A stretch of 64,000 bases of DNA from Paludibaculum fermentans (lineage in GTDB: Bacteria > Acidobacteriota > Terriglobia > Bryobacterales > Bryobacteraceae), in contig NZ_CP063849.1 of NCBI RefSeq assembly GCF_015277775.1, positions 9,191,501 to 9,255,500 on the forward strand, in the 5' to 3' direction. The notes beneath the pieces were generated by a model. That model saw only the letters and a list, made by a program, of their open reading frames with translations. It was not told where the DNA came from and did not search any database. The translations under genes were made by a program, and so were the position numbers. Below, in pieces: positions 7,246-55,554 of this stretch. Each line of letters begins with the position of its first letter. The stretch's first letter is position 1.

Positions 7246-8238
7246 ATGCAGAACAAGCGCAGAAGGCGTGTCGTGGTCTCGATTCTCACCTTCGCCGCCA
7301 TCTTGGCGTTGGACGGATGTCAGAAGCCGGGCCCGCCCTCGGCTGCTTCAGCCCCGCTGGAATTGACAGTCAACTCGTGGGTAGGATGGGGACCCCTGTT
7401 CATAGCACAGGAGAAGGGCTTCTTCGATGGGCTGAACGTCGGGATCGCGTTCACTGAGGATGCCGGTGCCAGACGGTCTGCCATGTTGGCCGGCCAAGTG
7501 GACGGGTACGCGAGCAGCGTCGACAACCTCGCGATCGACGCGACCTTCGGGGTGACAGGCAAGACTGTGATGTGCTTCGATGAATCCGCCGGCGCAGATG
7601 GTATAGTCGCGCGGCAGAACATAACTTGGGCAAACCTAAAAGGACATAAAGTTGCGGTACAGAAAGGTCTCCCCGGACACTTCCTGCTCTTGACTGCACT
7701 CGCGAAGCATGGACTCAAACCAGACGAAGTAGCGATCCTGGACCTGGACGCCGACAAGGCGGGGAGCGGGTTCGTGTCTGGAACCCTAGATGTCGCGGTA
7801 ACTTGGGAGCCGTGGATTTCCAAAGCTGCCGGAATGACAGGCGGGAAAAAACTCCTAACAACCGCTGAAATGCCGGGGACGATCGTCGACACGCTTGTAA
7901 TGAGGGACGAAGTCCTGTTATCTCGAAGGGCCGACGTTAAGAAGGTTATTGATGGGTGGTTTAAGGCGTTGGAATGGTACAAGACGCAACCTGACGAAGG
8001 CAATCGCATCATCGGAGCCGCGTACAAACTTAAGCCGGAAGAGGTAAAGGACATTGTCGCCGGAATCCGCTTTTACGACCTTGCCAAGAACCGGGAATAC
8101 ATGGTTGGTTCGCCTGCGGGCACAGCTCCGATCTTCAAGGTATTCGATCAGGCCTCCTCACTTTGGAAGGAGGCGGGTGTCACGAGCACCACGGTCCCTG
8201 CGCAGCGTTACATCGACTCATCCCTGATAGTGCCTTGA
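7246..8238 (+). CDS. NitT/TauT-family ABC transporter substrate-binding lipoprotein
   Basis: ATG 7246 follows GGAGG at 7237-7241. The 330-residue protein has a lipoprotein signal with lipobox LDGC (Cys25). The mature domain follows the SsuA/TauA/NMT1 binding-protein plan: a VNSWVGWGPLFIAQEKGFF first lobe, a DGYASS pocket segment, a GxxVAVQKGLPGHFLL second-lobe start, and the EPW motif. Known members bind nitrate, sulfonates, taurine or thiamine precursors; the ligand here cannot be told. It is 32 bases before the permease gene. Unusually, the transporter shares its operon with signalling proteins, so it may sense rather than feed. Confidence 0.85.
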   Translation: MQNKRRRRVVVSILTFAAILALDGCQKPGPPSAASAPLELTVNSWVGWGPLFIAQEKGFFDGLNVGIAFTEDAGARRSAMLAGQVDGYASSVDNLAIDATFGVTGKTVMCFDESAGADGIVARQNITWANLKGHKVAVQKGLPGHFLLLTALAKHGLKPDEVAILDLDADKAGSGFVSGTLDVAVTWEPWISKAAGMTGGKKLLTTAEMPGTIVDTLVMRDEVLLSRRADVKKVIDGWFKALEWYKTQPDEGNRIIGAAYKLKPEEVKDIVAGIRFYDLAKNREYMVGSPAGTAPIFKVFDQASSLWKEAGVTSTTVPAQRYIDSSLIVP

Positions 8239-8270
8239 GCTAATCTTCCAATCCAAAGAGGTCTTGGTTT

Positions 8271-9074
8271 ATGCGCTCTTCACGTTGGGTCATCGGTTTC
8301 GCTGGGCTTCTCTTCATTTGGTGGGTTGGTGCTGAGTGGGTGTCGAAGGCTAGACAGCACGATCTGCCCAAGACCACCATCACCCGCCTTTACCCGCGTC
8401 CCGCTCAAGTAGCTGCGGCTGCGTTGGAATTGCCATTCTCAGACGTGCTTCATAACATCACTGTCAGTAGCTTCCGCGTGCTGGCCGGGTTCCTGCTGGC
8501 CGCGGTTGTCGCTGTGCCGTTAGGTTTTATCTTTGGCAGGCTCAGGACGGTCGCAGGCGCTTTTGAGCCGGTGAACGACTTCATTCGGTACCTGCCTGTA
8601 GCAGGCTTCAGCACCCTCGCCATTTTCTTGCTCGGTACTGGAGACGCCAGCGCTGTACTGGTCGTGTTCCTAGGTACAGCGTTTCATCTCGTTGTTGCTA
8701 ACACCGACGCCGTTAGGCGCGTGCCGACGGTGTACTTCGATCTCGGCCGCACAAAGGGCCTTAGCCGGTCGCAGTTGATACGGCGCATCCTCATTCCAGC
8801 CGCAGCACCCGCTATATGGGACAATCTGCGGATTTCGGTCGGATGGGCGTGGAGCTACGTAACCCTTGCCGAAATCATGGGTAGCGAAGGCGGCCTTGGC
8901 CACGCGATCGAGGTGTCCCGAAGGTATATACGCACGGATCAAGTTCTCGTTTGGATTACAATTGTCGGGCTGCTGGGCGTACTGTCCGATGTGGTGATGC
9001 GGTTTGCTGGTCACAGGATGTTCGGCTGGGCGTATGCTCTGTCGGCTATCGACCAGAAGGCGAGGAGAACATGA
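8271..9074 (+). CDS. ABC transporter permease (SsuC/TauC type)
   Basis: The 267-residue integral membrane protein has about six hydrophobic segments. Its cytoplasmic loop carries the EAA-like motif (DLGRTKGLSRSQLIRRILIPAAAPAIWDNLRI), which docks to the ATPase. It matches the BPD_transp_1 family of nitrate/sulfonate/taurine importers in length and layout. An AAAGAGG box lies upstream of the start. The stop overlaps the ATPase start by ATGA, so the two subunits should be made together. Partner: the binding protein at 7246-8238. Confidence 0.88.
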   Translation: MRSSRWVIGFAGLLFIWWVGAEWVSKARQHDLPKTTITRLYPRPAQVAAAALELPFSDVLHNITVSSFRVLAGFLLAAVVAVPLGFIFGRLRTVAGAFEPVNDFIRYLPVAGFSTLAIFLLGTGDASAVLVVFLGTAFHLVVANTDAVRRVPTVYFDLGRTKGLSRSQLIRRILIPAAAPAIWDNLRISVGWAWSYVTLAEIMGSEGGLGHAIEVSRRYIRTDQVLVWITIVGLLGVLSDVVMRFAGHRMFGWAYALSAIDQKARRT

Positions 9075-10648
9075 GCAGTCACTGGCTGGCTGGCGGAAGT
9101 CCTTCACGCCGAAAAGGAACGGCTATTTCTCTCTCTGGGGTCTCTAAACAGTACCCCTTGCCTGGTGGCGGCAATTTGGTCGTCTTCTCGAAGCTGGACC
9201 TTCGCATTGATGCCGGTAGTTTCACTGCGTTCCTCGGGCCGTCGGGTTGTGGGAAGTCCACGCTACTAAGACTGATTTCTGGGCTTGAACTGCCCGATAG
9301 CGGAACCATCAGTGTGGAGACTGCTAGCGATGGAGTCGGACGGCGAGCCGGCCTCATGCACCAAAGGTTTCCAACGTTGCCGTGGCTGACGGTGGCGGAA
9401 AACGTAGGACTCGGAATGAATCCCGAGAACAACAATATCGCTCAGGGCATACGTACTGCGGCGCCGATCGCGCAAGAGAGGGCCAACTACTATCTAGGGC
9501 GCGTCGGCTTGTTCGGCTGGCAGGACGCTCGCCCGCCAGAACTGGATCTAAGCGGCGGGATGCTGCAGAGGCTCGCGTTGGCCAGCACCCTTGCTATGGA
9601 CCCTGATCCGGTACTACTCGACGAACCGCTGGGAGCGCTGGACGCGCTCACACGAAGAGAACTCCAGTCGCTTATCCGTGAGCTCCATGAGACTGAGGGT
9701 GGAACGTATCTCATTGTCACCCATGATGTCGACGAGGCCCTAGCCGTTGCGGATCGTGTTGTTGTACTCGGGCCAGCTGGGATTGGTGTGCTCTACGACA
9801 GTCAGACTGCCAGCCGACCGCTTGACCGAGAGAGTCTCGTCCGACTCCTCCGCAGCACCCATTTGACGTTTGCTGCGGGCACGTGGAGCGGCTATGTGCC
9901 CGTTCAAAAGACATCGATGCGTCAGGGCACCAAGGCCTACGAGTTCTGGCCCGGGTTAAGCGACGAAGACCGGCTCACCGCACTTCGATCAGGCCGCGCT
10001 CACGGAGCATTCTTAACCATTCAAGCGCTCGCAACGCTAGAACACCGGCTGCAAGACCTTGACCTCAAAGTCGTTCACGCATTCTCTCGACCGACGACGT
10101 CGGCGATCTGCGAGCACGTGCTTTTGCACCCGCGGGCCCGATCTAGGTCAAGTTTACAGTGGTTGCTTCCTGGCGATGGATTGGAGGCGGCAATTGTAAG
10201 AAGGTTGGATCCAACGGCCTTCCCGTCTCGCGTTGCCATGAAGGACAGTCGCTCTGCGTGTATCGCGGCAGTCGCCGACGGGGAAGCAGACGCATGTATC
10301 GCCGACTTGGGATTCGCGCGCCGCCTGCTTAGCATGTGGCAATGGTTTCGCCTCGAGAGGCGCCCCCTGCCTGCCACGATCTGGCAGGATCTGTGGACAC
10401 TCCTCGTCATACCGCAAGCACAGATCGAGATACTTGGAGACGCTGTGGGACGGACCGTTCGGCGGCTTGCGCGAGATGCCGCTGCGGTTCCTGCCGTAGC
10501 TGCTGCGAAAGTGCACTATCCGAGCTTTGAAGAGAGCCAGCGCCTTCTTCGAGACGGAGTCCTCCACGAGGCATTTCGTAACTGGAATGGCCGTTGCTTT
10601 CCAGCCGTACAAGATGGCGATTCCCTGGGTGAGATAAGAGCGAAATGA
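9071..10648 (+). CDS. ABC ATPase fused to a binding-protein-like C-terminal domain
   Basis: The 525-residue protein starts at ATG 9071 (ATGA overlap with the permease). Residues 15-255 are a complete ABC ATPase: Walker A GPSGCGKS (56-63), Q-loop Gln98, signature LSGGM (160-164), Walker B VLLDEP (181-186) and His218. Residues about 264-525 resemble a NitT/TauT periplasmic binding domain (AAGTWSGYVP; LRSGRAHGAFLTIQAL; LDLKVVHAF) but without a signal peptide, so it must be cytoplasmic. NitT/NrtC ATPases carry a comparable C-terminal regulatory domain that senses intracellular substrate. Here the domain may report ligand status to the downstream signalling genes (inference). Confidence 0.85.
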   Translation: MSSHWLAGGSPSRRKGTAISLSGVSKQYPLPGGGNLVVFSKLDLRIDAGSFTAFLGPSGCGKSTLLRLISGLELPDSGTISVETASDGVGRRAGLMHQRFPTLPWLTVAENVGLGMNPENNNIAQGIRTAAPIAQERANYYLGRVGLFGWQDARPPELDLSGGMLQRLALASTLAMDPDPVLLDEPLGALDALTRRELQSLIRELHETEGGTYLIVTHDVDEALAVADRVVVLGPAGIGVLYDSQTASRPLDRESLVRLLRSTHLTFAAGTWSGYVPVQKTSMRQGTKAYEFWPGLSDEDRLTALRSGRAHGAFLTIQALATLEHRLQDLDLKVVHAFSRPTTSAICEHVLLHPRARSRSSLQWLLPGDGLEAAIVRRLDPTAFPSRVAMKDSRSACIAAVADGEADACIADLGFARRLLSMWQWFRLERRPLPATIWQDLWTLLVIPQAQIEILGDAVGRTVRRLARDAAAVPAVAAAKVHYPSFEESQRLLRDGVLHEAFRNWNGRCFPAVQDGDSLGEIRAK

Positions 10649-13164
10649 CAATTCAGCCAAAACAGAAGCCTTCACCGGTCGCGTTGCACGATGGAACAAG
10701 CGCACGCGCTGCCAAGGCAGCGATAGACGCCGTGCGCATAGAACGCCCAGATGAGTTTCGACGAGTATTCCTGAATGAACACGGTAACTCCATTGAAGCT
10801 TGGGACAAGCAGGACGGGAACGTAAAAACCCTGGTCGATATTGGGTTGCTGGAACAACTACCAGATGGGAAGTGGCGGTGCCCCTTTCTGCTCACAACAT
10901 GGGAGGATCACTACTACCTAAGCGACTGGCCCGGCGGAGAGCAGGACTTCGATGAGTTCGAAGTGTTCTGTCCTCACGTCGAAACTCGATTCTTCAGCAA
11001 CCTTTGCCAGGCGCGCCCCGGGGATTACGTCCTGGATCTTGGGACTGGCAGCGGAATCCTGCTGATTGAAGCAGCTAGGCGCGGTGCTCGAGGACTTGGC
11101 ATCGACATCTCCTTGCGCGCATTGGATTTCGCCCGAGCGAACGCACAACTAAATGGTCTTGCTGATCGTGTGAGGTTTGATCGCGGAGACATTACCGACC
11201 CGGCTCAGTACCAATCGTGGGGGTCTCCCAATCTCGTTATCTGCAATCCTCCTTTCGAGCCTGTACCTGACGATCTCGGCTTCCCTCGCCGTCCGCTCCA
11301 CTCGGCGGCAGGACCGACCGGGGACGGCCCGACGCGAGCCATACTCGCTGCTCTTCGCTCGTGGTCGCACCGCCCAGATCTCTTTCAGTTCGTGCTGTTT
11401 TCACTGGGATCCGCCCCGGAAGCGGAGAACGAGCCAGACCATATCTTCTTGACGGAACCGTTGCGACGAGCCGCCGGAGATCTAGGCTGCATGCTGGAAC
11501 TGCGGGAACTGCTGCGACCACTGAAGATCGATGATTACTTGGTGTTGAACTTCCGTCGCGGTACAAATGACGCTGAAGCGTGGCGGAAGCGTATGTCATC
11601 TGCAGGACTTGGGACATTGCATCTTCTCTTTGCGAATCTGTATGCCTGCCCTGGCTCGTCGAGAGGGGGGGTGCCAACGACGCGCTGGACACGACACCGC
11701 AATACCTTCCCGGAAGACGTGTGTTTCGTTTGGCCCCTTGGTGTCACGAGTCGAAGTCGTGGGTCCGACGGCGCCGCTGAAGGGGACTTCATTCGGGAGC
11801 ACCTGAATTCACTAATTGTGGCGAAGGAAAAGTCGATGGAGGGGCAGACTATTGATCTTCGACTTGACGACGTTAGGATTCAATCGTACCTCCGTGACAT
11901 CATCTCCGACGGCACCCTTTACGGGAGGCTCCGGCCGTTAGTAATCCTGGATATTCCGAAGCCGGCTGCGGGTGACAACGGCTCGGAGGTCGGCCTCCTT
12001 ACGATCGCGGGCGACGATGTAGTCCGGTTTGAAAAATGTGATGATCGGAAGTTGGAGGAGACACTCGGGACAATTGTTAGCGGCCGAGTGTTCACGATGA
12101 GTGCAGACGTGAGGGTGCCCGACGCCACAAGCCCAGACTTTATCCGCACATGCATCGATTCCATGGATGTCAGCAAACTAGCTTCCCTCAGACACTGGTC
12201 GGGATCGACCTTTCAGCGCTTTGTTGTGATTAGCTCAGCATTCCAACCGTTGACCCCCCTGCAACAATTGTTCTTTGCCCACTTTCTGTCGGAGCTTGCG
12301 GCCGCAGCGATTCGGGAACGGGCACGAACCAAGGAAGTGCTCGCTGATGCGTCTTTTATGCTTGGACACGATCTCAAGAACCGCCTTGGAACCCTTCCGA
12401 TGCAGGCTCTGATCGATAGCCTCTGGGCAGGGGATACGGCCGGCGCTCGTTCGCAGGCCCTTCGGTTGGATCGAGAAGTTGATTCGCTTTATTGCATCGG
12501 CTCTCTATTCTCGGTCCTGGCTAAATCGACTGAAGGTTGCTTACCCCTGGAGTGGCTCGCACCTAAGTTTCGGTCTGGTTGGCCGCGCTCGTTCAGCCAA
12601 TCTGATCTGAGGGAACTCGGCGCAGCATTCGGACAGCTTGCTGCCGAGGCGATATTAGCTGTGGATCGTGATAACGAACTTGCGATCACCATGATCGACG
12701 CTGATGGTCCGCATGTCATCCGTGCGGAACATAGGAATCCCATTTCTCGCTTTTCGCCATTCAACGCCGAGGCCGAGCAGGAAATCCCGGCCGCCGCGTT
12801 CTTAGCTGGTTTGGCTGAACTCTGCCGAAATGCCGCGCGCGCGGTACTGAACCCGTCAAAGCGTGAATTCTTTATGCGCGCCCATGGCGGCCTGAAGATT
12901 GAATACGAAGTGTCTACGGACAGTGCCAGTAGGTCAGTGACAGTCACAGTGTGGAATCCGTTCGTTGGGAAACTACAGAAGGTTACCTCTCTGGATCGGA
13001 TTCAGAACGTTTATCGCGAGTTTGGCGATGCCATTCGGCTGGAGGCGCCCGTAATCGTCGACGCGAATCCCCACAGGCCCGGACCAGGGCAGTATGCAAT
13101 GTCCTCGTGCACATTCTATCCGGCACGCTTGAACTTCAGGAGGAAAACGGCACATGAAGGGTAG
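10645..13164 (+). CDS. Methyltransferase fused to a histidine-kinase-like module
   Basis: This 839-residue protein overlaps the ATPase gene by ATGA. Residues about 110-300 form a class I SAM methyltransferase: motif I VLDLGTGSG (129-137), an acidic IDIS turn, and the NPPF tetrapeptide (201-204) used by HemK/PrmC-like and N6-adenine enzymes. A middle region (about 400-560) resembles a GAF/PAS-type sensor. Near the C-terminus, GHDLKNRL places His575 like a phosphoacceptor H-box, and ELCRNAARAV places Asn729 like the N-box of a GHKL ATPase. The later G-boxes are weak, so kinase activity is uncertain. No membrane segment is seen. I know of no standard family with this combination. Confidence 0.65.
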   Translation: MTIQPKQKPSPVALHDGTSARAAKAAIDAVRIERPDEFRRVFLNEHGNSIEAWDKQDGNVKTLVDIGLLEQLPDGKWRCPFLLTTWEDHYYLSDWPGGEQDFDEFEVFCPHVETRFFSNLCQARPGDYVLDLGTGSGILLIEAARRGARGLGIDISLRALDFARANAQLNGLADRVRFDRGDITDPAQYQSWGSPNLVICNPPFEPVPDDLGFPRRPLHSAAGPTGDGPTRAILAALRSWSHRPDLFQFVLFSLGSAPEAENEPDHIFLTEPLRRAAGDLGCMLELRELLRPLKIDDYLVLNFRRGTNDAEAWRKRMSSAGLGTLHLLFANLYACPGSSRGGVPTTRWTRHRNTFPEDVCFVWPLGVTSRSRGSDGAAEGDFIREHLNSLIVAKEKSMEGQTIDLRLDDVRIQSYLRDIISDGTLYGRLRPLVILDIPKPAAGDNGSEVGLLTIAGDDVVRFEKCDDRKLEETLGTIVSGRVFTMSADVRVPDATSPDFIRTCIDSMDVSKLASLRHWSGSTFQRFVVISSAFQPLTPLQQLFFAHFLSELAAAAIRERARTKEVLADASFMLGHDLKNRLGTLPMQALIDSLWAGDTAGARSQALRLDREVDSLYCIGSLFSVLAKSTEGCLPLEWLAPKFRSGWPRSFSQSDLRELGAAFGQLAAEAILAVDRDNELAITMIDADGPHVIRAEHRNPISRFSPFNAEAEQEIPAAAFLAGLAELCRNAARAVLNPSKREFFMRAHGGLKIEYEVSTDSASRSVTVTVWNPFVGKLQKVTSLDRIQNVYREFGDAIRLEAPVIVDANPHRPGPGQYAMSSCTFYPARLNFRRKTAHEG

Positions 13165-14452
13165 ACGCTTGAAGCTCTTTGTTATCAATGACGAGTGGGA
13201 CTTCGCCAAACCTGATTCTGACTTGATCGAGGTTGTCACCTTAGACGAAGGCCTTGTCGGCAAGAAGACTGACTGCCTACAGTCTTGGCACCAACATATG
13301 AGATTGTGGGGAACCGGCACGCCGCCGGAGTTTGATGTGCTGCTGATAGACATCAAATTTGAGATCGATGACACGGACCCGGAGTACCATGCTGAGTCGC
13401 AGACGAACATTAATCCTTATGGCCTCCTGCACGCGCTGCCGTTCGTGGCGCGTCAGGGTCTTACGCGGTGGCCCTTTGTCTGGTCGCTACATAGTGGCGA
13501 TCCAGGATCCGTAGCCAATGATCCTGTGGCGATATTCGCCTTCGGGCTGCTGTGCGCAATGGAGCGTAGGTCTGAGATTGTGTGGAATGAGCGCACGCAA
13601 GAGGAGGAGACTTGGCGATGGGACGGCTATGAACTCGCAGCGATCCCGGAGTACTTCTCGCGGTGGATCCCGAGTGCTCCGAAGGGGAATCCGAAGGCCG
13701 TTTGGCCCCAGTTGGTTGACAGATATCGCAGTAAGCTTATTGAGAGCGTCGCATGTGGAGACATCCGAATTGCTACTCGGGAACTTGACCGGCTGTTGGC
13801 TGCCGCCCAGTCGAAGCAGGCGGCTGAGATTCGATTGTTGGACGAAGGTTCATTGTCGTTGAAGCGGGGGTATCGCGAAGATTCCATCGCATTACCCTCG
13901 CTATTCGCAGATGTTTTGCAGCCAAAAGGTGTTCGGTGGAGCAACGGGGGCGACACCTCCATTGTTGCGAAGTACCTCGCCGACCTAAAAGGGGCGTCAA
14001 CCGTGGACGACGCCACGTTTCTATATAGCAAGGTGTGTGAGATTCGACAAGCGCTGGGTCCTGCCTTCGAGAAGTTTGATGAGGTAGTAACGGACAACAG
14101 TTCAGCTGGGCTCAGCTACACTCGCCTGCTCGGCCAGCGATCGCCGGAGAAGGTCGCGGTGGCATTGTTCTTGTGTTGGTGGCTTGATCTCGATTACTAC
14201 ACCCGCCCGAAGCGAACGGCAGATCTAATCAAGTACTGCGGACTCAGGAAAGACTACAACTCTCTAATCGGTCCCTTGGATAAAGCTGGCTTCGGCCGGA
14301 GGCCGCAGGTATTCCTCGATTCCCTGGGAACCGTGCCGCTGGAAGATCCGCTCTACAGAGAGGTCGGCGAACTTCATCAGCGAGAAGTGATGAAAACAGG
14401 CCTCCGAACGGAGGAGTGGTGTCCGTCGTGCCTGCTGGTTGAAGAGGAGTAG
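13154..14452 (+). CDS. Receiver-like protein with unknown C-terminal domain
   Basis: The 432-residue protein overlaps the kinase-like gene by 11 bases. Its first 125 residues fit a response-regulator receiver fold with insertions: LKLFVINDEW ends in an acidic pair (Asp13/Glu14), FDVLLIDIKF gives a candidate phosphoacceptor Asp66, and WPFVWSLHSGDP provides the later hydroxyl residue. The remaining 300 residues are helical with no recognised DNA-binding motif, and there is a CPSC near the end. It is the last gene of the five-gene operon and a natural phosphotransfer partner of the upstream histidine-kinase-like protein. The receiver assignment is by pattern, not by search. Confidence 0.55.
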   Translation: MKGRRLKLFVINDEWDFAKPDSDLIEVVTLDEGLVGKKTDCLQSWHQHMRLWGTGTPPEFDVLLIDIKFEIDDTDPEYHAESQTNINPYGLLHALPFVARQGLTRWPFVWSLHSGDPGSVANDPVAIFAFGLLCAMERRSEIVWNERTQEEETWRWDGYELAAIPEYFSRWIPSAPKGNPKAVWPQLVDRYRSKLIESVACGDIRIATRELDRLLAAAQSKQAAEIRLLDEGSLSLKRGYREDSIALPSLFADVLQPKGVRWSNGGDTSIVAKYLADLKGASTVDDATFLYSKVCEIRQALGPAFEKFDEVVTDNSSAGLSYTRLLGQRSPEKVAVALFLCWWLDLDYYTRPKRTADLIKYCGLRKDYNSLIGPLDKAGFGRRPQVFLDSLGTVPLEDPLYREVGELHQREVMKTGLRTEEWCPSCLLVEEE

Positions 14453-14488: not shown

Positions 14489-14823
14489 TCAATCCAGAAC
14501 TGGCAGTTCTGTGCCCGGCGGATCAACTTCGATCGGGGGCAGAAGCCGTCCAGGCGTTGGTTGCCATGTCCAGCAGGACCCATTGTCTTCGACCAAATAG
14601 GGCCGAGTTCCGGCGCGCCTGGCCGCAGTCTGTTTGAAGAAGAAGGCGATGCTTTGCGAGACGCATGAATCGCGGATCTGCCGACCCCACGCGTCGTCGC
14701 ACGCCCGGAATCCCCTCCCGGACTCACCGCCGACAATCACCTGATCAGTGCCCGTCAGATCGAGAAACCCCAGGGGGCCGAGGAGAGGCCCCGCGCTAAC
14801 AAAGGCTAAGCTAGGGTTATCTC
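14489..14823 (-). pseudogene. DUF5131 (phage Gp37/Gp68-like) C-terminal remnant
   Basis: On the - strand an open stretch with no good start encodes the conserved end of DUF5131 proteins: a FVSAGPLLGPL segment, then VIVGGESGRG, then an IRDSCVSQSIAFFFKQ helix. Only about 110 of the usual 230 or more residues remain, and the frame runs into a TGA at 14894-14896 upstream. Intact relatives are common in phages and have a radical-SAM-like fold. It is downstream of the tail-fibre gene at the edge of the prophage, so it is either a decayed phage gene or marks the insertion junction. Confidence 0.6.
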
Positions 14824-14905
14824 CTGGGCCAGAATAGGGCGAACACGAGTAGGGTGACTGAAAACCGCTGACGAGTGGATGGGAGTTGGTCAGTCAATCG
14901 TCGTG

Positions 14906-16774
14906 TCAAGGGCTAGAGTACAGGAGGATATACCCCAAAGTGACGCCGGCGCTATTCTTCACCTTGATCACGCCTGACCAGCCAGTTGGGTTGGAAGCCT
15001 CCATAAGTTCGGCGAAACGGTAGCCGTTGCCGGAGCCGCCAGCAAGGATTAGTTCGCCGTTGGCGGTGAGTTCAAGGAGGGTGCTGTCGGCGAGGTTGGA
15101 GCCGGGGCCAGTGACCTTGATGGGAGAGGTTGTGTTGTCCGAGGCGGCGATGACGATCGGGCCGACGGCGACGCCGGAGGCCATGTGCGGCGTTTGGGAG
15201 GTCCAAGTACGAGCGTAGGCTTTCTGCGCGTCGGCCCCTTGCTGGAGGCATGCGCCCCAAAGGTTGATGTCGCCCGTGGTCCAGTCGTCGCCATTGCCGG
15301 CGAACTGGCGGGCGACGATCCACAGGCCGGTCTGGCCGCTCGCCAGCGTGCCGGTGACATTGAAGCGCTGCCAGGAGGTCGTCAGGGTCACCTGTGTGGG
15401 ACCGGCGAGGTAGGCCGCATAGGCGTTGTTGACGATGGCCAGTGAGATCTTGCGCGTGCCGGAGAGGACGCGGGCCCAGATGTAGAAGGTGTAGGTTCCG
15501 CCGTCTGTGAGGCCTGCGACCTGCTGCTGGATGACGGGCGTCGTCGTGACGGCGATAACCGCATCCGCAGTGTGGTTGCCGTCCGGCGCGATGATGGCGC
15601 TCGAGGTGACGGAGCACGAGCCGCCGTTCTTGTCCCACGCGGCTGCGGCGAAGTTCTCAGAGTGCTTCGCCATGTTCTCCAGCGGGCCGCCGATCGTTTG
15701 GTGTGGACCGCAGTCGACGGGCCCGGTGAAGTGGTCACCGGCGCGGTCGGCGGGGACGTAGCCGAGGGCATTCGTGATTTCTCCCGCGACGGGCGGCGCC
15801 GCGTTCACGATGACACTAACGCGGTCGTTGGTCGGATCGTCGGCCGCGCTTATCGTAACGCGCGTGCCTTCGACCAGATTGATGGCGCGGCGCGTGCCGA
15901 TATCGGTCCCGTCCTTCTGGACCTTCACTGGTAACTCGCCGCTCACGATGTCGCTGGCGGTGTGGGTGTGCTCCGGTAGATCGGCCGCCGCGATGCTTGC
16001 TCCTGCGGTCACCCGGCCCTTGGCATCGACTGTTACCTTCGGATACGCGCCCGGCGAGGCACCGGAGGGCGGCAACGAGAGCACACCCGACTCGACAGCG
16101 AGGCCGCCGGCTGGATCAACCTGCACGATCCCCTTGCTCGCGTAGCCGGCGTCCGGATAGGAGAAAGCGCCGAACGTCTGCCCGGGCGCGAAATCGACGA
16201 TGGCGTCCATGGCGAGATGATTCTGCGCGTTCAGAGCCATGCCGAGGTCGCCCGAGTCATCGGCCCGCCGCCATTTCACGCCGCCGGTGTTCGGCAGACG
16301 GACGAGGCCGGTGCCGGACTTCGCCCCGGATCCAAATTGAGCGCCATCCTGAAAGGTCTTGTTGCCGGTCACGACCTGGTCGCCGGCTGAGCGGACGTAG
16401 TTGCGCGCGGAAACCGCGCCGAGCTCGTTCTCGATGGCCAGAACCGCGGACTGGAGCGCCGTCAAGAAGCCGGAAACCATGTTGGCCCGGACGGTGGAAC
16501 CGTTCTGGTGCACGGCGGCGGCGGTTCCGAAGGCGCCGCGGATGCAGCCGGTGAACTGATTCGCGGTCTTTGCCGCGTAGATGATGAGCTCGTCGTCGAT
16601 TGAGAGAATGCCGTAGGTGTCGGCGAAGCCCATAGAGGTGGATGCCACGCTGATCGTCGAGTCGCCGGCACCGATCGCGTTGGTGGCCGTGGTTTCCAGC
16701 GGCTTCGATTGGAAGGCGTCCACCGGCGTGAACAGGCTCGAGGCGTCGTCGATCGCGGTCGGGAACTTAGGCAT
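14906..16774 (-). CDS. Phage tail fibre / receptor-binding protein
   Basis: ATG 16774 is chosen because GAGGGG lies just upstream; it overlaps the preceding tail gene by 8 bases. The 622-residue product starts with a small tail-attachment region (FPTAIDDASSLFTPVDAF) and a domain with alternating Thr/Ser/Gly. A SAGDQVVTGNKTFQDG segment follows, typical of fibre shafts. Then come PKVTVDAKGRVTAG and EHTHTASDI motifs seen in many tail fibres, and a jelly-roll-like carbohydrate-binding region (about 380-520; TYTFYIWARV...W). It would sit at the tail tip and recognise the host surface. It is the last gene of the late operon. Confidence 0.8.
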   Translation of the reverse strand: MPKFPTAIDDASSLFTPVDAFQSKPLETTATNAIGAGDSTISVASTSMGFADTYGILSIDDELIIYAAKTANQFTGCIRGAFGTAAAVHQNGSTVRANMVSGFLTALQSAVLAIENELGAVSARNYVRSAGDQVVTGNKTFQDGAQFGSGAKSGTGLVRLPNTGGVKWRRADDSGDLGMALNAQNHLAMDAIVDFAPGQTFGAFSYPDAGYASKGIVQVDPAGGLAVESGVLSLPPSGASPGAYPKVTVDAKGRVTAGASIAAADLPEHTHTASDIVSGELPVKVQKDGTDIGTRRAINLVEGTRVTISAADDPTNDRVSVIVNAAPPVAGEITNALGYVPADRAGDHFTGPVDCGPHQTIGGPLENMAKHSENFAAAAWDKNGGSCSVTSSAIIAPDGNHTADAVIAVTTTPVIQQQVAGLTDGGTYTFYIWARVLSGTRKISLAIVNNAYAAYLAGPTQVTLTTSWQRFNVTGTLASGQTGLWIVARQFAGNGDDWTTGDINLWGACLQQGADAQKAYARTWTSQTPHMASGVAVGPIVIAASDNTTSPIKVTGPGSNLADSTLLELTANGELILAGGSGNGYRFAELMEASNPTGWSGVIKVKNSAGVTLGYILLYSSP

Positions 16775-53132: not shown

Positions 53133-54281
53133 TCACGGCGCGAGGAATTCCGCCAACGCTCTGCGCCAAGGTCGAAGCCAGCCTCCATCGTTTCGCCGTT
53201 CTTCCATTAGCACATCAGCATCATCCAGCGTGCGCCAGTTGCCGTCTGCGTTTCTCAACAAGCCGGCGGGAATAACGGAGCCACCGTCCAGGCGGTTCTC
53301 GATATCCGCGAACCAGAATAGGAACTGTCGCCAAGCCAATGCAAGCCACGCCCGTTCGGGTTCGGTCGCAAGCTGTCCAAGGATCTGCTCTGCAAATGGG
53401 TTCACTGAAGTTCCCAGGCTTGGCAGATTCATCGGCAGCACACGCAGCAGATCCGACTGCCTCAGAAATGCCATAAGCGACTCGTCGAACCAATAGGGCA
53501 GCTGGCCCCCGCCTTGCCCGCGCGGTTCCTCAAAACGGGTGCGGGTGAATCGTCGCAAGTTGAAAAACTTTCCTGTGGCGCAATGCGTTGCTCCAGCGGC
53601 TTTCCAGAGGACTACATCGGATGACGAGAATCCGACGGTCACCTCGATCCCGGCCGCACGCAGAGCAGCAATCAGACGCATGGCCCCCTTGATTTCTTCA
53701 ACTTCAGCCAGCTCCCTGCGTGGCTCGGCGAGGCTCACCAGCACGAGGTAGATGTGACTTGTCTTCGATCGGGACAGAATGGATCCGATCGCTAACGCGC
53801 GATCCGGCGTCGCAAGCTCGGGCAATCCGACAACAGCGGTCTGCATCGGACGCATAGCGGTGCCGACCAACCGGGAGACTAACTGATCGCCGACGGTCAC
53901 CATTCGGGCGAAGTATTCGTCTGGATAGCTGGCCGGCAGGACGGCTGGGGAGCAAACGGCAGTTGGCCCGATCTCGGTGCAGATGTTGACGAGAGCGTCC
54001 AAAAGACCGCTCCACCAAGAATCTGAGGCTAGGTCCGCGGTGTCCACGTCGTTCGGGAAGTAAGGCCAGTCACGCAGTCGCCCCCGCTCCGAGTTTGGAA
54101 CGTACATCTGAGGATCGAATAGCGTCTCGAAGTTAGCCTGCTCTCGCCCCCATGCGATCTGCGCGGCCATCTTCACCTGATCGTAGTTTACTGGGCTCAG
54201 GATCGCGCCCCCATATTGTGCCAATCCGTCCGCCCAGAGCAGATTCTCAGAGTCGTGCCCCATCTGATGATATGCAGGCAT
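53133..54281 (-). CDS. Unknown protein of the three-gene cargo island (possible TIM barrel)
   Basis: ATG 54281 overlaps the kinase stop as TGATG, giving 382 residues. The protein has an alternating beta-alpha pattern with strands IYLVLVSLAE, IEVTVGFSSS and a Cys/His cluster (AGATHCATGKFFNLRRF), compatible with a TIM barrel or related alpha/beta fold. N-terminal MPAYHQMGHDSENLLW and PYFPNDVD are distinctive. No known family is recognised. It is the last gene of the nuclease-kinase operon, so it may be the effector or the sensor. Product likely cytoplasmic. Confidence 0.55.
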   Translation of the reverse strand: MPAYHQMGHDSENLLWADGLAQYGGAILSPVNYDQVKMAAQIAWGREQANFETLFDPQMYVPNSERGRLRDWPYFPNDVDTADLASDSWWSGLLDALVNICTEIGPTAVCSPAVLPASYPDEYFARMVTVGDQLVSRLVGTAMRPMQTAVVGLPELATPDRALAIGSILSRSKTSHIYLVLVSLAEPRRELAEVEEIKGAMRLIAALRAAGIEVTVGFSSSDVVLWKAAGATHCATGKFFNLRRFTRTRFEEPRGQGGGQLPYWFDESLMAFLRQSDLLRVLPMNLPSLGTSVNPFAEQILGQLATEPERAWLALAWRQFLFWFADIENRLDGGSVIPAGLLRNADGNWRTLDDADVLMEERRNDGGWLRPWRRALAEFLAP

Positions 54282-55126
54282 CAGCGTGCAACCTCCTGAC
54301 AAGCACGTTCAAGGTCATCCGGCGTTCGAAATCGTTGCACAGGCCATGGCGCCGTCATCCGAATCAGAAACGACATGCCCGCCTGGGCCGCGGCTTCCAA
54401 AAAGCGCCGCGTCTGTGGCGTGCGCTCACCGACACACTCGACCGTCTTCTGAGGCGAAGCCCCGTCTTCTTGATAAGGATGGAACCCGAAAAGACCGAGG
54501 GCCAGCACGGTACCCAACGAGAACTGGTCAGATCGCCAGTCGATCATGCTCTTTTCATTGCGCAATTGCTCTGGTGGAGCGAAAAAGGGCGTGCCGGGGC
54601 CTTGCAATAGCCAGGTCTGCGTGAGAGACGTACTAACCAGATCCCGAACGAGGCCGAAATCGACGAGCACCGGCGTCGTACCGTCGGCACGAAACAGGAT
54701 GTTGTCAGGCTTAATGTCGCGGTGAACCAAATCGCGAGACGCGATGTGGGCAACGGCGTTAACGAGTTGCCGCCCGATCGTCTGGCACTCCTCAGCACTT
54801 AACAGGCCACGGTTCAATCTCGCTGTCAGCGTGCCGCCGGAAAGAAACTCCTCCAACGAAAGCAGGTATTGGATGCCATCGTGATAAAAAGTGGCAATTG
54901 CCGACAAACGTCCGATGTTCGGATGCGAGCAGCGTTGCATCGCGCTCAGCTCTCGGCTTGTTCGTTCAGGCGAGAATCCTGGCTGGTACACCTTCAGCGC
55001 CTGTGTCTCCTCAGTCGCCAGCACTACGTGAAAGGTCTCTTTGAAAGCCCCTGTCCCGACGTGGCCAACGAAACGATGGCCGTTGGTCGCGCAGAACGCC
55101 TCAGCGACCGATGCCAGCGCGCTCAC
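54281..55126 (-). CDS. Serine/threonine protein kinase of the cargo island
   Basis: The GTG start at 55126 overlaps the nuclease stop. The 281-residue protein has a full Hanks-type kinase domain: glycine loop GHVGTGAFKE (21-30), Lys45 (ALKVY), Glu59, the catalytic HRDIKPDN (135-142) and DFG (156-158), then APPE. There is no membrane segment or sensor domain, so it is a free cytoplasmic kinase. Free kinases next to nucleases occur in phage-defence islands. The gene sits in the prophage replication module but is not a normal part of it. Confidence 0.85.
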   Translation of the reverse strand: MSALASVAEAFCATNGHRFVGHVGTGAFKETFHVVLATEETQALKVYQPGFSPERTSRELSAMQRCSHPNIGRLSAIATFYHDGIQYLLSLEEFLSGGTLTARLNRGLLSAEECQTIGRQLVNAVAHIASRDLVHRDIKPDNILFRADGTTPVLVDFGLVRDLVSTSLTQTWLLQGPGTPFFAPPEQLRNEKSMIDWRSDQFSLGTVLALGLFGFHPYQEDGASPQKTVECVGERTPQTRRFLEAAAQAGMSFLIRMTAPWPVQRFRTPDDLERACQEVAR

Positions 55127-55554
55127 GCATTGGCTCCCATTGCTTCGATATGCAACTGCGCTTTCAATGACAGCCAGGGCTCGATCGGATCTGCCTCGAC
55201 GGATGGGTGAAGCACAACGATTTCAACCCCTTCGAGGTAACAGATCCCGACTTGCCGGCGGTCGAACTCGCCAGCGTACCGGTGAGCGCGTAGTGCGGCA
55301 TTCTTTGGCATCAGGACGTAGGAGCGGTGAGCGAAGCATCGGTTGCGAAACGCCTGCTGCAGGGCGCCACGCCAATTCTCAAGCTTGGCTTCCACTGCGA
55401 TTAAGGTCTTCTCAGCAGTACACGCAACGATGTCTGTCCGACCGCGTTGATAGTAGAACTCAGTAGCGACCTGAACTGCGCCCAAGGGTGACCGGCCCGC
55501 ACTCAAGCGAGAGACGAAGGACGTCACCAGCGTTTGCTCATTCGGAAAGACCAT
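55123..55554 (-). CDS. PD-(D/E)XK-type nuclease of the cargo island
   Basis: The 143-residue protein shows the core of restriction-like nucleases: an N-terminal helix, Glu32 (VATEFYY), Asp41 (GRTDIVA), then IAVEAKLENW with Glu55 and Lys57 (D-x13-E-x-K), followed by a RSYVLMPK strand. It would cleave DNA or RNA in the cytoplasm. No ribosome binding site is strong at ATG 55554. It overlaps the kinase gene by GTGA, so the two are coupled. It may act as the nuclease effector of a kinase-controlled system. Confidence 0.7.
   Translation of the reverse strand: MVFPNEQTLVTSFVSRLSAGRSPLGAVQVATEFYYQRGRTDIVACTAEKTLIAVEAKLENWRGALQQAFRNRCFAHRSYVLMPKNAALRAHRYAGEFDRRQVGICYLEGVEIVVLHPSVEADPIEPWLSLKAQLHIEAMGANA

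Follow-up and report, generated by a model that had tools for sequence, protein, structure and literature searches.

Does the uptake of a compound feed into phosphotransfer signalling in a five-gene operon of Paludibaculum fermentans, a soil-type bacterium? The operon lies at 7246-14452 in a 64,000-nucleotide stretch of contig NZ_CP063849.1 (the whole stretch is called the window below) and joins the genes of an ATP-binding cassette (ABC) importer to a gene for a methyltransferase/histidine-kinase-like fusion protein and a gene for a receiver-like protein. The reading that these genes form a mobile, importer-linked phosphosignalling module, which controls or reads uptake and has the kinase-like and receiver-like pair as its core, has in our judgement about an even chance of being right.

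The five-gene operon

A sequence-only reading of this DNA had described a run of five genes, four of them overlapping by 4-11 bases, with an importer of the NitT/TauT type. All of this was confirmed. The five open reading frames (ORFs) were found on the + strand where that reading had placed them, with junctions in order of +32, -4, -4 and -11 bases, that is, three overlaps involving four genes, and the three importer families scored above their Pfam gathering cut-offs. The genes and their parts are as follows.

7246-8238, + strand: substrate-binding protein (SBP), a lipoprotein of the NitT/TauT type (NMT1_2, SsuA-like), from Pfam, NCBIfam and PDB matches, with the lipobox LDGC recognised by eye
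8271-9074, + strand: importer permease of the TauC/SsuC type, from Pfam BPD_transp_1 and comparison with E. coli
9071-10648, + strand: importer ATPase (about residues 1-240, from ABC_tran and motifs) with a 280-residue C-terminal tail
10645-13164, + strand: 839-residue methyltransferase/kinase-like fusion protein, whole gene
10645-11784, + strand: its class I methyltransferase part, residues 1-380, HemK/PrmA-like, from Pfam, NCBIfam, PDB and motifs
11785-12264, + strand: its region preceding the helical part, GAF-like by eye only, with no Pfam family match there
12265-13164, + strand: its histidine-kinase-like part with His575, probable N-box Asn729 and Asn771, from hhalign, a structure model with Foldseek, and homologues at two other loci (L017 and L016, described below)
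13154-14452, + strand: receiver-like protein of 432 residues with Asp66, from alignment and hhalign; its C-terminal part is without a known domain

The kinase-like half

No kinase model of Pfam, PADLOC or PHROGs matched the kinase-like half, Pfam HisKA and HATPase had no match at E≤1 in any of the three kinase-like proteins (window, L016 and L017), and the best 25 of 48 NCBIfam rows for the 839-residue protein were methyltransferases throughout, with no kinase. For the partner, Pfam Response_reg gave no match in the three receiver-like proteins, no receiver model of PADLOC or PHROGs matched the 432-residue protein, and NCBIfam returned 0 rows for it. Since the domain libraries miss both parts, both labels needed other tests.

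A profile of the three kinase-like sequences was aligned by hhalign to seven E. coli kinase cores, with 200 column shuffles as the control. The results showed that His575 aligns on the H-box of the E. coli kinases with a score of 27.1, which none of the 200 shuffles reached (mean 13.9, maximum 24.0). This His is kept in all three proteins in HDLKNRL-like surroundings, and the helical part alone also aligned at the H-box (23.3; 1/200 shuffles as high). Asn729, which lies in the N-box-like ELxRNA, is kept in all three as well. When the C-terminal domain was compared alone, FLAGLAELCRNAARAV, which includes Asn729, paired with the N-box of EnvZ (19.2; 2/200 shuffles as good). AlphaFold2 (AF2), run on the three-sequence alignment, gave a best model of the kinase part with a pLDDT (predicted local distance difference test) of 59 and a pTM (predicted template modelling score) of 0.62. 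Foldseek found 17 PDB matches at E≤0.001, 11 of them to PDK, 2 to the AgrC kinase and 4 to LvrB, which is titled a hybrid response regulator, and the catalytic domain of PhoQ matched the model with an E of 0.005 and a target template modelling (TM) score of 0.57. The sequence comparisons and the low-confidence model suggest that the C-terminal half is a divergent histidine-kinase-like protein with an atypical GHKL-like domain.

The G1 Asp of this domain is replaced by Asn771 (NPxxG) and the G2 glycines are absent, both in all three proteins. With the G1 and G2 motifs lost, autophosphorylation is doubtful and the half may not use ATP, which brings in another explanation: the half may be a pseudokinase or a ChpT-like phosphotransferase that takes its phosphate from another kinase in trans. 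We regard this as a real possibility, held tentatively and at somewhat under even chances. ChpT offers a precedent, to which PMC3433190 ascribes an atypical Bergerat fold and no autophosphorylation, and by analogy the kinase-like half could possibly be such a phosphotransferase. However, the N-box-like Asn729 is present in all three proteins and meets the EnvZ N-box when the domain is compared alone, and the 62-70 residues that follow the G1 position fall only a little short of the 78 in EnvZ and the 76 in PhoR.

The receiver-like partner

Asp66 of the 432-residue protein lies in FDVLLIDIKF, an FDxxxID pattern, is invariant in all three receiver-like proteins, and is followed downstream by NPxGLLHAL. 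It was aligned by hhalign to the Asp of the receiver (REC) domain, and the alignment to nine E. coli receivers covered 13 columns round Asp66 only, with a score of 19.8, a probability of 3.1% and 4/200 shuffles as high. On this comparison it is plausible, if weakly so, that the partner is a receiver.

Recurrence of the pair beside different importers

The 839-residue protein found matches in 6 of 250 genomes of the host's order at E≤1e-14. Three of the six (L013, L014 and L015) contain the methyltransferase only and were excluded from the count of the pair; the rest are the query, L016 and L017. The kinase-like core profile was found in 3 of 237 genomes of the family, the query included, and the receiver-like profile in 2 of 349 genomes of the class (the query and the genome of L016) and in 2 of 396 genomes of the phylum (the query and one spurious short match). 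A phylum search at E≤1e-20 left the query alone (1/297). Two candidate relatives were rejected as spurious: L010, the second match in a tally of 2/297, is a 52-residue match in a gene that is HAD-type by eye, and L024, the second match in the 2/396 tally, is a 92-position match with no homologous gene. A scan of GTDB contigs with strict patterns (2 of 78 stretches) returned the same two loci, as L018 (an Acidobacteria metagenome-assembled genome (MAG), the L017 contig) and L019 (a Terriglobia MAG, the L016 contig). Phyla beyond the host's were reached by these strict patterns only, which do not show absence there. Searches of viral contigs, plasmids and phages found no relatives of the pair. 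As far as searched, the pair is rare and sporadic.

Its members align over 280-452 columns at 26-32% identity. At L017, in a genome of the same genus, the genes of an ATPase, a permease, an SBP, a methyltransferase, a kinase-like and a receiver-like protein form one tight run with junctions of -4, +6, -17, +8 and -4 bases. Compared with the window, the permease is 19% identical and the SBP and methyltransferase have no BLASTP match, whereas the kinase-like and receiver-like proteins are 29-32% identical. At L016 the pair stands alone on its strand, and a pyridine-nucleotide-disulphide reductase, an ABC ATPase, a permease and an OpuAC-type SBP are encoded divergently, with the ATPase gene 1.7 kb from the kinase-like gene. 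Thus a complete ABC importer, a different one each time, lies beside the pair at all three loci, and a methyltransferase at two of them. The methyltransferase does not belong to this core, as no such gene was seen next to the pair at L016, and that of L017 does not align with that of the window. Since the pair is shared while the importers and methyltransferases differ, the pair and not the five-gene set is the conserved core, and since its relatives in two further genomes each stand next to another importer, it has the appearance of a movable sensing module. The five-gene order that the sequence-only reading proposed to follow across genomes is accordingly not the unit that is kept, but the kinase-like/receiver-like pair does recur in two genomes beside ABC importers.

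With 76 and 92 ABC ATPases in the genomes of L017 and L016 (first-look counts), an ABC ATPase would fall within 5 kb by chance with a probability of about 0.10 and about 0.09, and of about 0.01 at both loci, with an SBP and a permease not yet required. Based on two independent loci, the association of the pair with importers is suggestive, not proof. It is very improbable, in our view, that unrelated genes simply came together in a mobile region with no joint function. The small number of examples and the differing importers and methyltransferases would fit such an origin, but a tight run occurs in two genomes with different parts, the methyltransferase is covalently fused to the kinase-like half, and the importer is beside the pair in every case.

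Other genes were observed around L017. After its receiver-like gene, and perhaps in the same operon, come a LOG/lysine-decarboxylase-like gene and then an unknown gene (L017 6440-7653), at junctions of +18 and -4 bases. A cluster that by eye is like those for ribosomally synthesised and post-translationally modified peptides (RiPPs), with YcaO/TfuA-like, carbamoyltransferase-like and radical-SAM-like genes and methyltransferases (L028 11281-18188), flanks the operon, and a phage-type integrase lies farther out than this cluster.

The importer and the methyltransferase

The SBP matched Pfam NMT1_2 with 61.7 bits (gathering cut-off 24.7) and TIGR01728 SsuA_fam with 107.5 bits, under the cut-off of 163.5, and its PDB matches were nitrate transport and aliphatic-sulphonate-binding proteins. 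The permease matched BPD_transp_1 with 73 bits (cut-off 26.4) and is 26-28% identical to E. coli TauC/SsuC. The ATPase matched ABC_tran with 87.1 bits (cut-off 25) and has Walker A at residue 56, the signature at 160, Walker B at 182 and the H-loop at 217. Judged by these families, an NMT1-type SBP, a permease and an ATPase in one operon, this is a NitT/TauT ABC importer. A permease of this importer family is also encoded by a giant phage, Bacillus phage G (L071, gp243), near a gene annotated as ABC transporter; it is 28% identical over 96% of the query.

The C-terminal tail of the ATPase matched Pfam Phosphonate-bd with an E of 0.09, four SBPs in hhalign with an E of 0.32, and six SBPs with a score of 20.0, which 5 of 200 shuffles equalled; no significant match was found in the PDB. 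An SBP-like fold of the tail is only suggested by this resemblance, which is weak at best. According to PMC6603209, the ATPase NrtC of the cyanobacterial nitrate importer ends in a regulatory domain that has a putative site for nitrate, and purely by analogy the tail could possibly sense the internal ligand in the same manner.

The methyltransferase part matched Pfam Methyltransf_31 with 47.3 bits (cut-off 27) and TIGR03534 with 55.5 bits, under its cut-off. It has the motifs DLGTGSG at residue 131 and NPPFEP at 201, and with PrmA and HemK as its PDB matches the nearest type is PrmA/HemK. It is similar to the small methyltransferase of L015, beside which a carbamoyltransferase-like gene was recognised by eye. 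When plasmids were searched with the 839-residue protein, none of the best 20 of 43 records covered more than 24% of the query, and every match fell between residues 47 and 329, in the methyltransferase part.

The prophage setting

Next to the operon lies a prophage, with its tail-fibre end towards the operon, and the features on that side are as follows.

14492-14893, - strand: what is left of a DUF5131 gene, between operon and tail-fibre gene; it matches positions 155-217 of the 243 in the Pfam DUF5131 profile, with 71.7 bits
14906-64000, - strand: prophage, from the tail fibre to the terminase and beyond (PHROGs terminase, portal, major head protein, tail fibre J)

At the far end of the prophage, an integrase (phrog_95) lies near a tRNA-Asn. 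The tRNA-Asn segment has a single occurrence in the window genome at up to 3 mismatches, and the left end of the element could therefore not be fixed; the operon is at or just past the prophage end. In a genome of the same genus (G354), the prophage at this tRNA is for the most part collinear with that of the window. Its DNA similarity to the window stops where the tail-fibre gene ends, at window position 14906, and the next 39 kb of G354, which were compared, contain no further match of at least 50 bases (E≤1e-5). About 60 bases past its tail-fibre gene, and convergent like the window operon, G354 carries a different NitT/TauT importer (L068 1133-5201), which consists of a permease, an ATPase, a 454-residue SBP-like protein, in which no signal peptide was recognised by eye, and an SBP, with a G+C content at third codon positions (GC3) of 0.56-0.67. 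These two examples suggest that importers are taken up as cargo in the slot behind the tail fibre.

GC3 in the window operon is 0.60-0.67, compared with 0.77-0.88 in 15 larger, hand-picked prophage genes. Other prophage ORFs are also below the GC3 of the 15 picked genes. Low GC3 is found at 53133-55554 too, and it thus marks likely cargo, not the operon alone. The sporadic presence of the pair (3/237) and the low GC3 fit a mobile module.

The plain importer in the slot of G354 also bears on an alternative that we consider rather unlikely, namely that the operon is an ordinary nutrient-uptake operon carried beside the prophage as fitness cargo, with a methyltransferase that acts on the compound taken up and a pair that is no more than the local regulator. 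The NitT/TauT families above cut-off, the methyltransferase that resembles the small one of L015 next to a carbamoyltransferase-like gene, and the permease of this type in Bacillus phage G are consistent with it. However, none of the two-component families in the libraries searched resembles the pair, which recurs beside different importers, and a covalent link to a kinase-like half would be unusual in a methyltransferase that simply acts on a substrate.

G354 contains two copies of the tRNA-Asn segment, 15 kb from each other (L037 2975 and 18343). The second copy borders the integrase end of the prophage, and there are apparently two tandem elements.

Proposed mechanism

From the genes, their packing in the operon, the pair beside three different importers and the H-box match, all of which are observed, we infer how phosphotransfer, signal direction and output may be arranged in the importer-linked module. 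The core pair would attach to whichever SBP-dependent ABC importer it works with, and in the window a HemK-like methyltransferase is fused to it. The SBP would deliver a small ligand, and the kinase-like protein would be changed either by uptake or by the level of ligand inside the cell, for which the ATPase tail may be the sensor, as in NrtC; His575 would give or pass a phosphoryl group to Asp66; and the receiver-like protein would then alter the importer, the methyltransferase or expression. The operon would be cargo, located at the tail-fibre end of the prophage or immediately beyond it. It is improbable, though conceivable, that the whole is a mobile cassette in which an atypical His-Asp relay on exchangeable importers, with a fused methyltransferase, lets ligand import switch the methylation of a cellular or phage target, and that temperate phages swap such cassettes behind the tail fibre.

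Several observations weigh against the importer-linked signalling module. For the kinase-like half, the probability given by hhalign itself is only 7.2%, the whole-core alignment puts the EnvZ N-box on an earlier helix and not on Asn729, and the G1 Asp and G2 motif that all three proteins lack are both present in EnvZ and PhoR. The best model has a pLDDT of only 59 and the other four models 33-44, and the query TM-scores of the 17 Foldseek matches are just 0.22-0.31. For the partner, AF2 on the three receiver-like sequences gave a pLDDT of 37 and no usable fold, and Pfam found no known (output) domain in the C-terminal 280 residues of these proteins. The examples number only three, the query among them, and adjacency at L016 could be due to chance, as the importer there is divergent and a reductase gene lies between. 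A search for promoters and terminators at the operon found nothing above chance. The low GC3 is not peculiar to the operon, since three prophage genes outside the 15 picked ones (53133-55554) have 0.65-0.66. The importer of G354 is without the pair, and the kinase-like core profile found no match in that genome.

The transporter-coupled signalling of the sequence-only reading thus stands in part. The importer is joined to the fusion protein and to a partner with Asp66, and the pair recurs, but the kinase half without the G1 Asp and G2 glycines may not use ATP. The proposed fusion is sound in its methyltransferase, which is above the Pfam cut-off, and has the H-box match in its kinase-like half, which those losses qualify; the proposed receiver keeps its conserved Asp66, while the 13 columns and the shuffles back the fold weakly.

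Comparison with known systems

Orthodox kinase/regulator pairs such as E. coli EnvZ-OmpR served as the yardstick. The window pair shares with them an H-box His, an N-box-like Asn and a neighbouring gene with a receiver-like Asp. In contrast to them, it has no Pfam HisKA, HATPase or Response_reg match, has lost G1 and G2, has no known output domain and carries a methyltransferase in front. ChpT, the Caulobacter histidine phosphotransferase, is alike by its description in PMC3433190 in having a kinase-like architecture with an atypical Bergerat-type domain, but the window protein has retained an N-box-like Asn and is encoded alongside an importer, and no cognate hybrid kinase is known for it. 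NrtC-type ATPases, as portrayed in PMC6603209, share the NitT/TauT type and a C-terminal extension possibly sensing internal ligand, whereas the tail of the window ATPase resembles an SBP weakly (5/200 shuffles as good) and is accompanied by the pair. TauABC and SsuACB belong to the same SBP, permease and ATPase families but do not have the methyltransferase-kinase fusion and receiver-like partners of the window importer. The G354 importer shares the slot behind the tail-fibre gene, the convergent orientation, the low GC3 and the NitT/TauT type, and adds an extra SBP-like protein; its operon is without methyltransferase, kinase-like and receiver-like genes, and its components are only distantly related. 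A literature search for this architecture gave nothing relevant among the matches listed.

The pair was unseen by the domain libraries searched, and it accompanies different SBP-dependent importers. Should the proposed mechanism hold, the pair would be a signalling module, carried beside a prophage, that attaches to transporters and in one case to a methyltransferase. With one His, one Asp and one ligand, it is a small, testable target.

The defence question

The sequence-only reading had also considered a defence-type system, and this part was not borne out. In such a case the operon would serve anti-phage defence or superinfection exclusion, with the importer or its ligand as sensor, the pair as relay and the methyltransferase or receiver-like protein as effector. 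We consider this quite improbable, and there is no direct evidence for it. The operon does lie by a prophage with defence-gene matches at its other end: HmaA (480 bits), HmaB (350 bits), HmaC (229 bits) and HEC-07 matches lie between the prophage and the integrase by the tRNA-Asn (L026 103-11857 and 14217-15845). The sporadic distribution, the low GC3 and the methyltransferase-kinase fusion would also fit. However, the kinase-like and receiver-like parts had no PADLOC match at any of the three loci, the window 839-residue protein being matched through its methyltransferase only; no toxin-like effector domain was found; and the 20 kb of L016 show no phage or defence gene by eye.

The PADLOC matches to mad2 and mad3 are partial, the best stretches being positions 281-370 of 492 in mad2 and 263-341 of 374 in mad3. 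For mad3, the window ATPase scored 96.8 bits and three other ABC ATPases 87.2, 96.3 and 68.1; for mad2, the window methyltransferase scored 67.8 bits, four other methyltransferases 65.6-78.2 and a fifth 21.5. As the controls score alike, these matches are generic, and membership in MADS was rejected, with no full-length mad genes present. In Detocs, the receiver protein carries a nucleoside-phosphorylase-like effector domain. Membership in Detocs was rejected too, since none of the receiver-like proteins of the three loci has a Pfam domain that scores above its cut-off.

Apart from the operon, the - strand of the window at 53133-55554 holds a protein-kinase-like gene that matches the PD-T4-6 and mad6 models. 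Together with its two neighbours (GC3 0.65-0.66), it is possibly a small cargo set.

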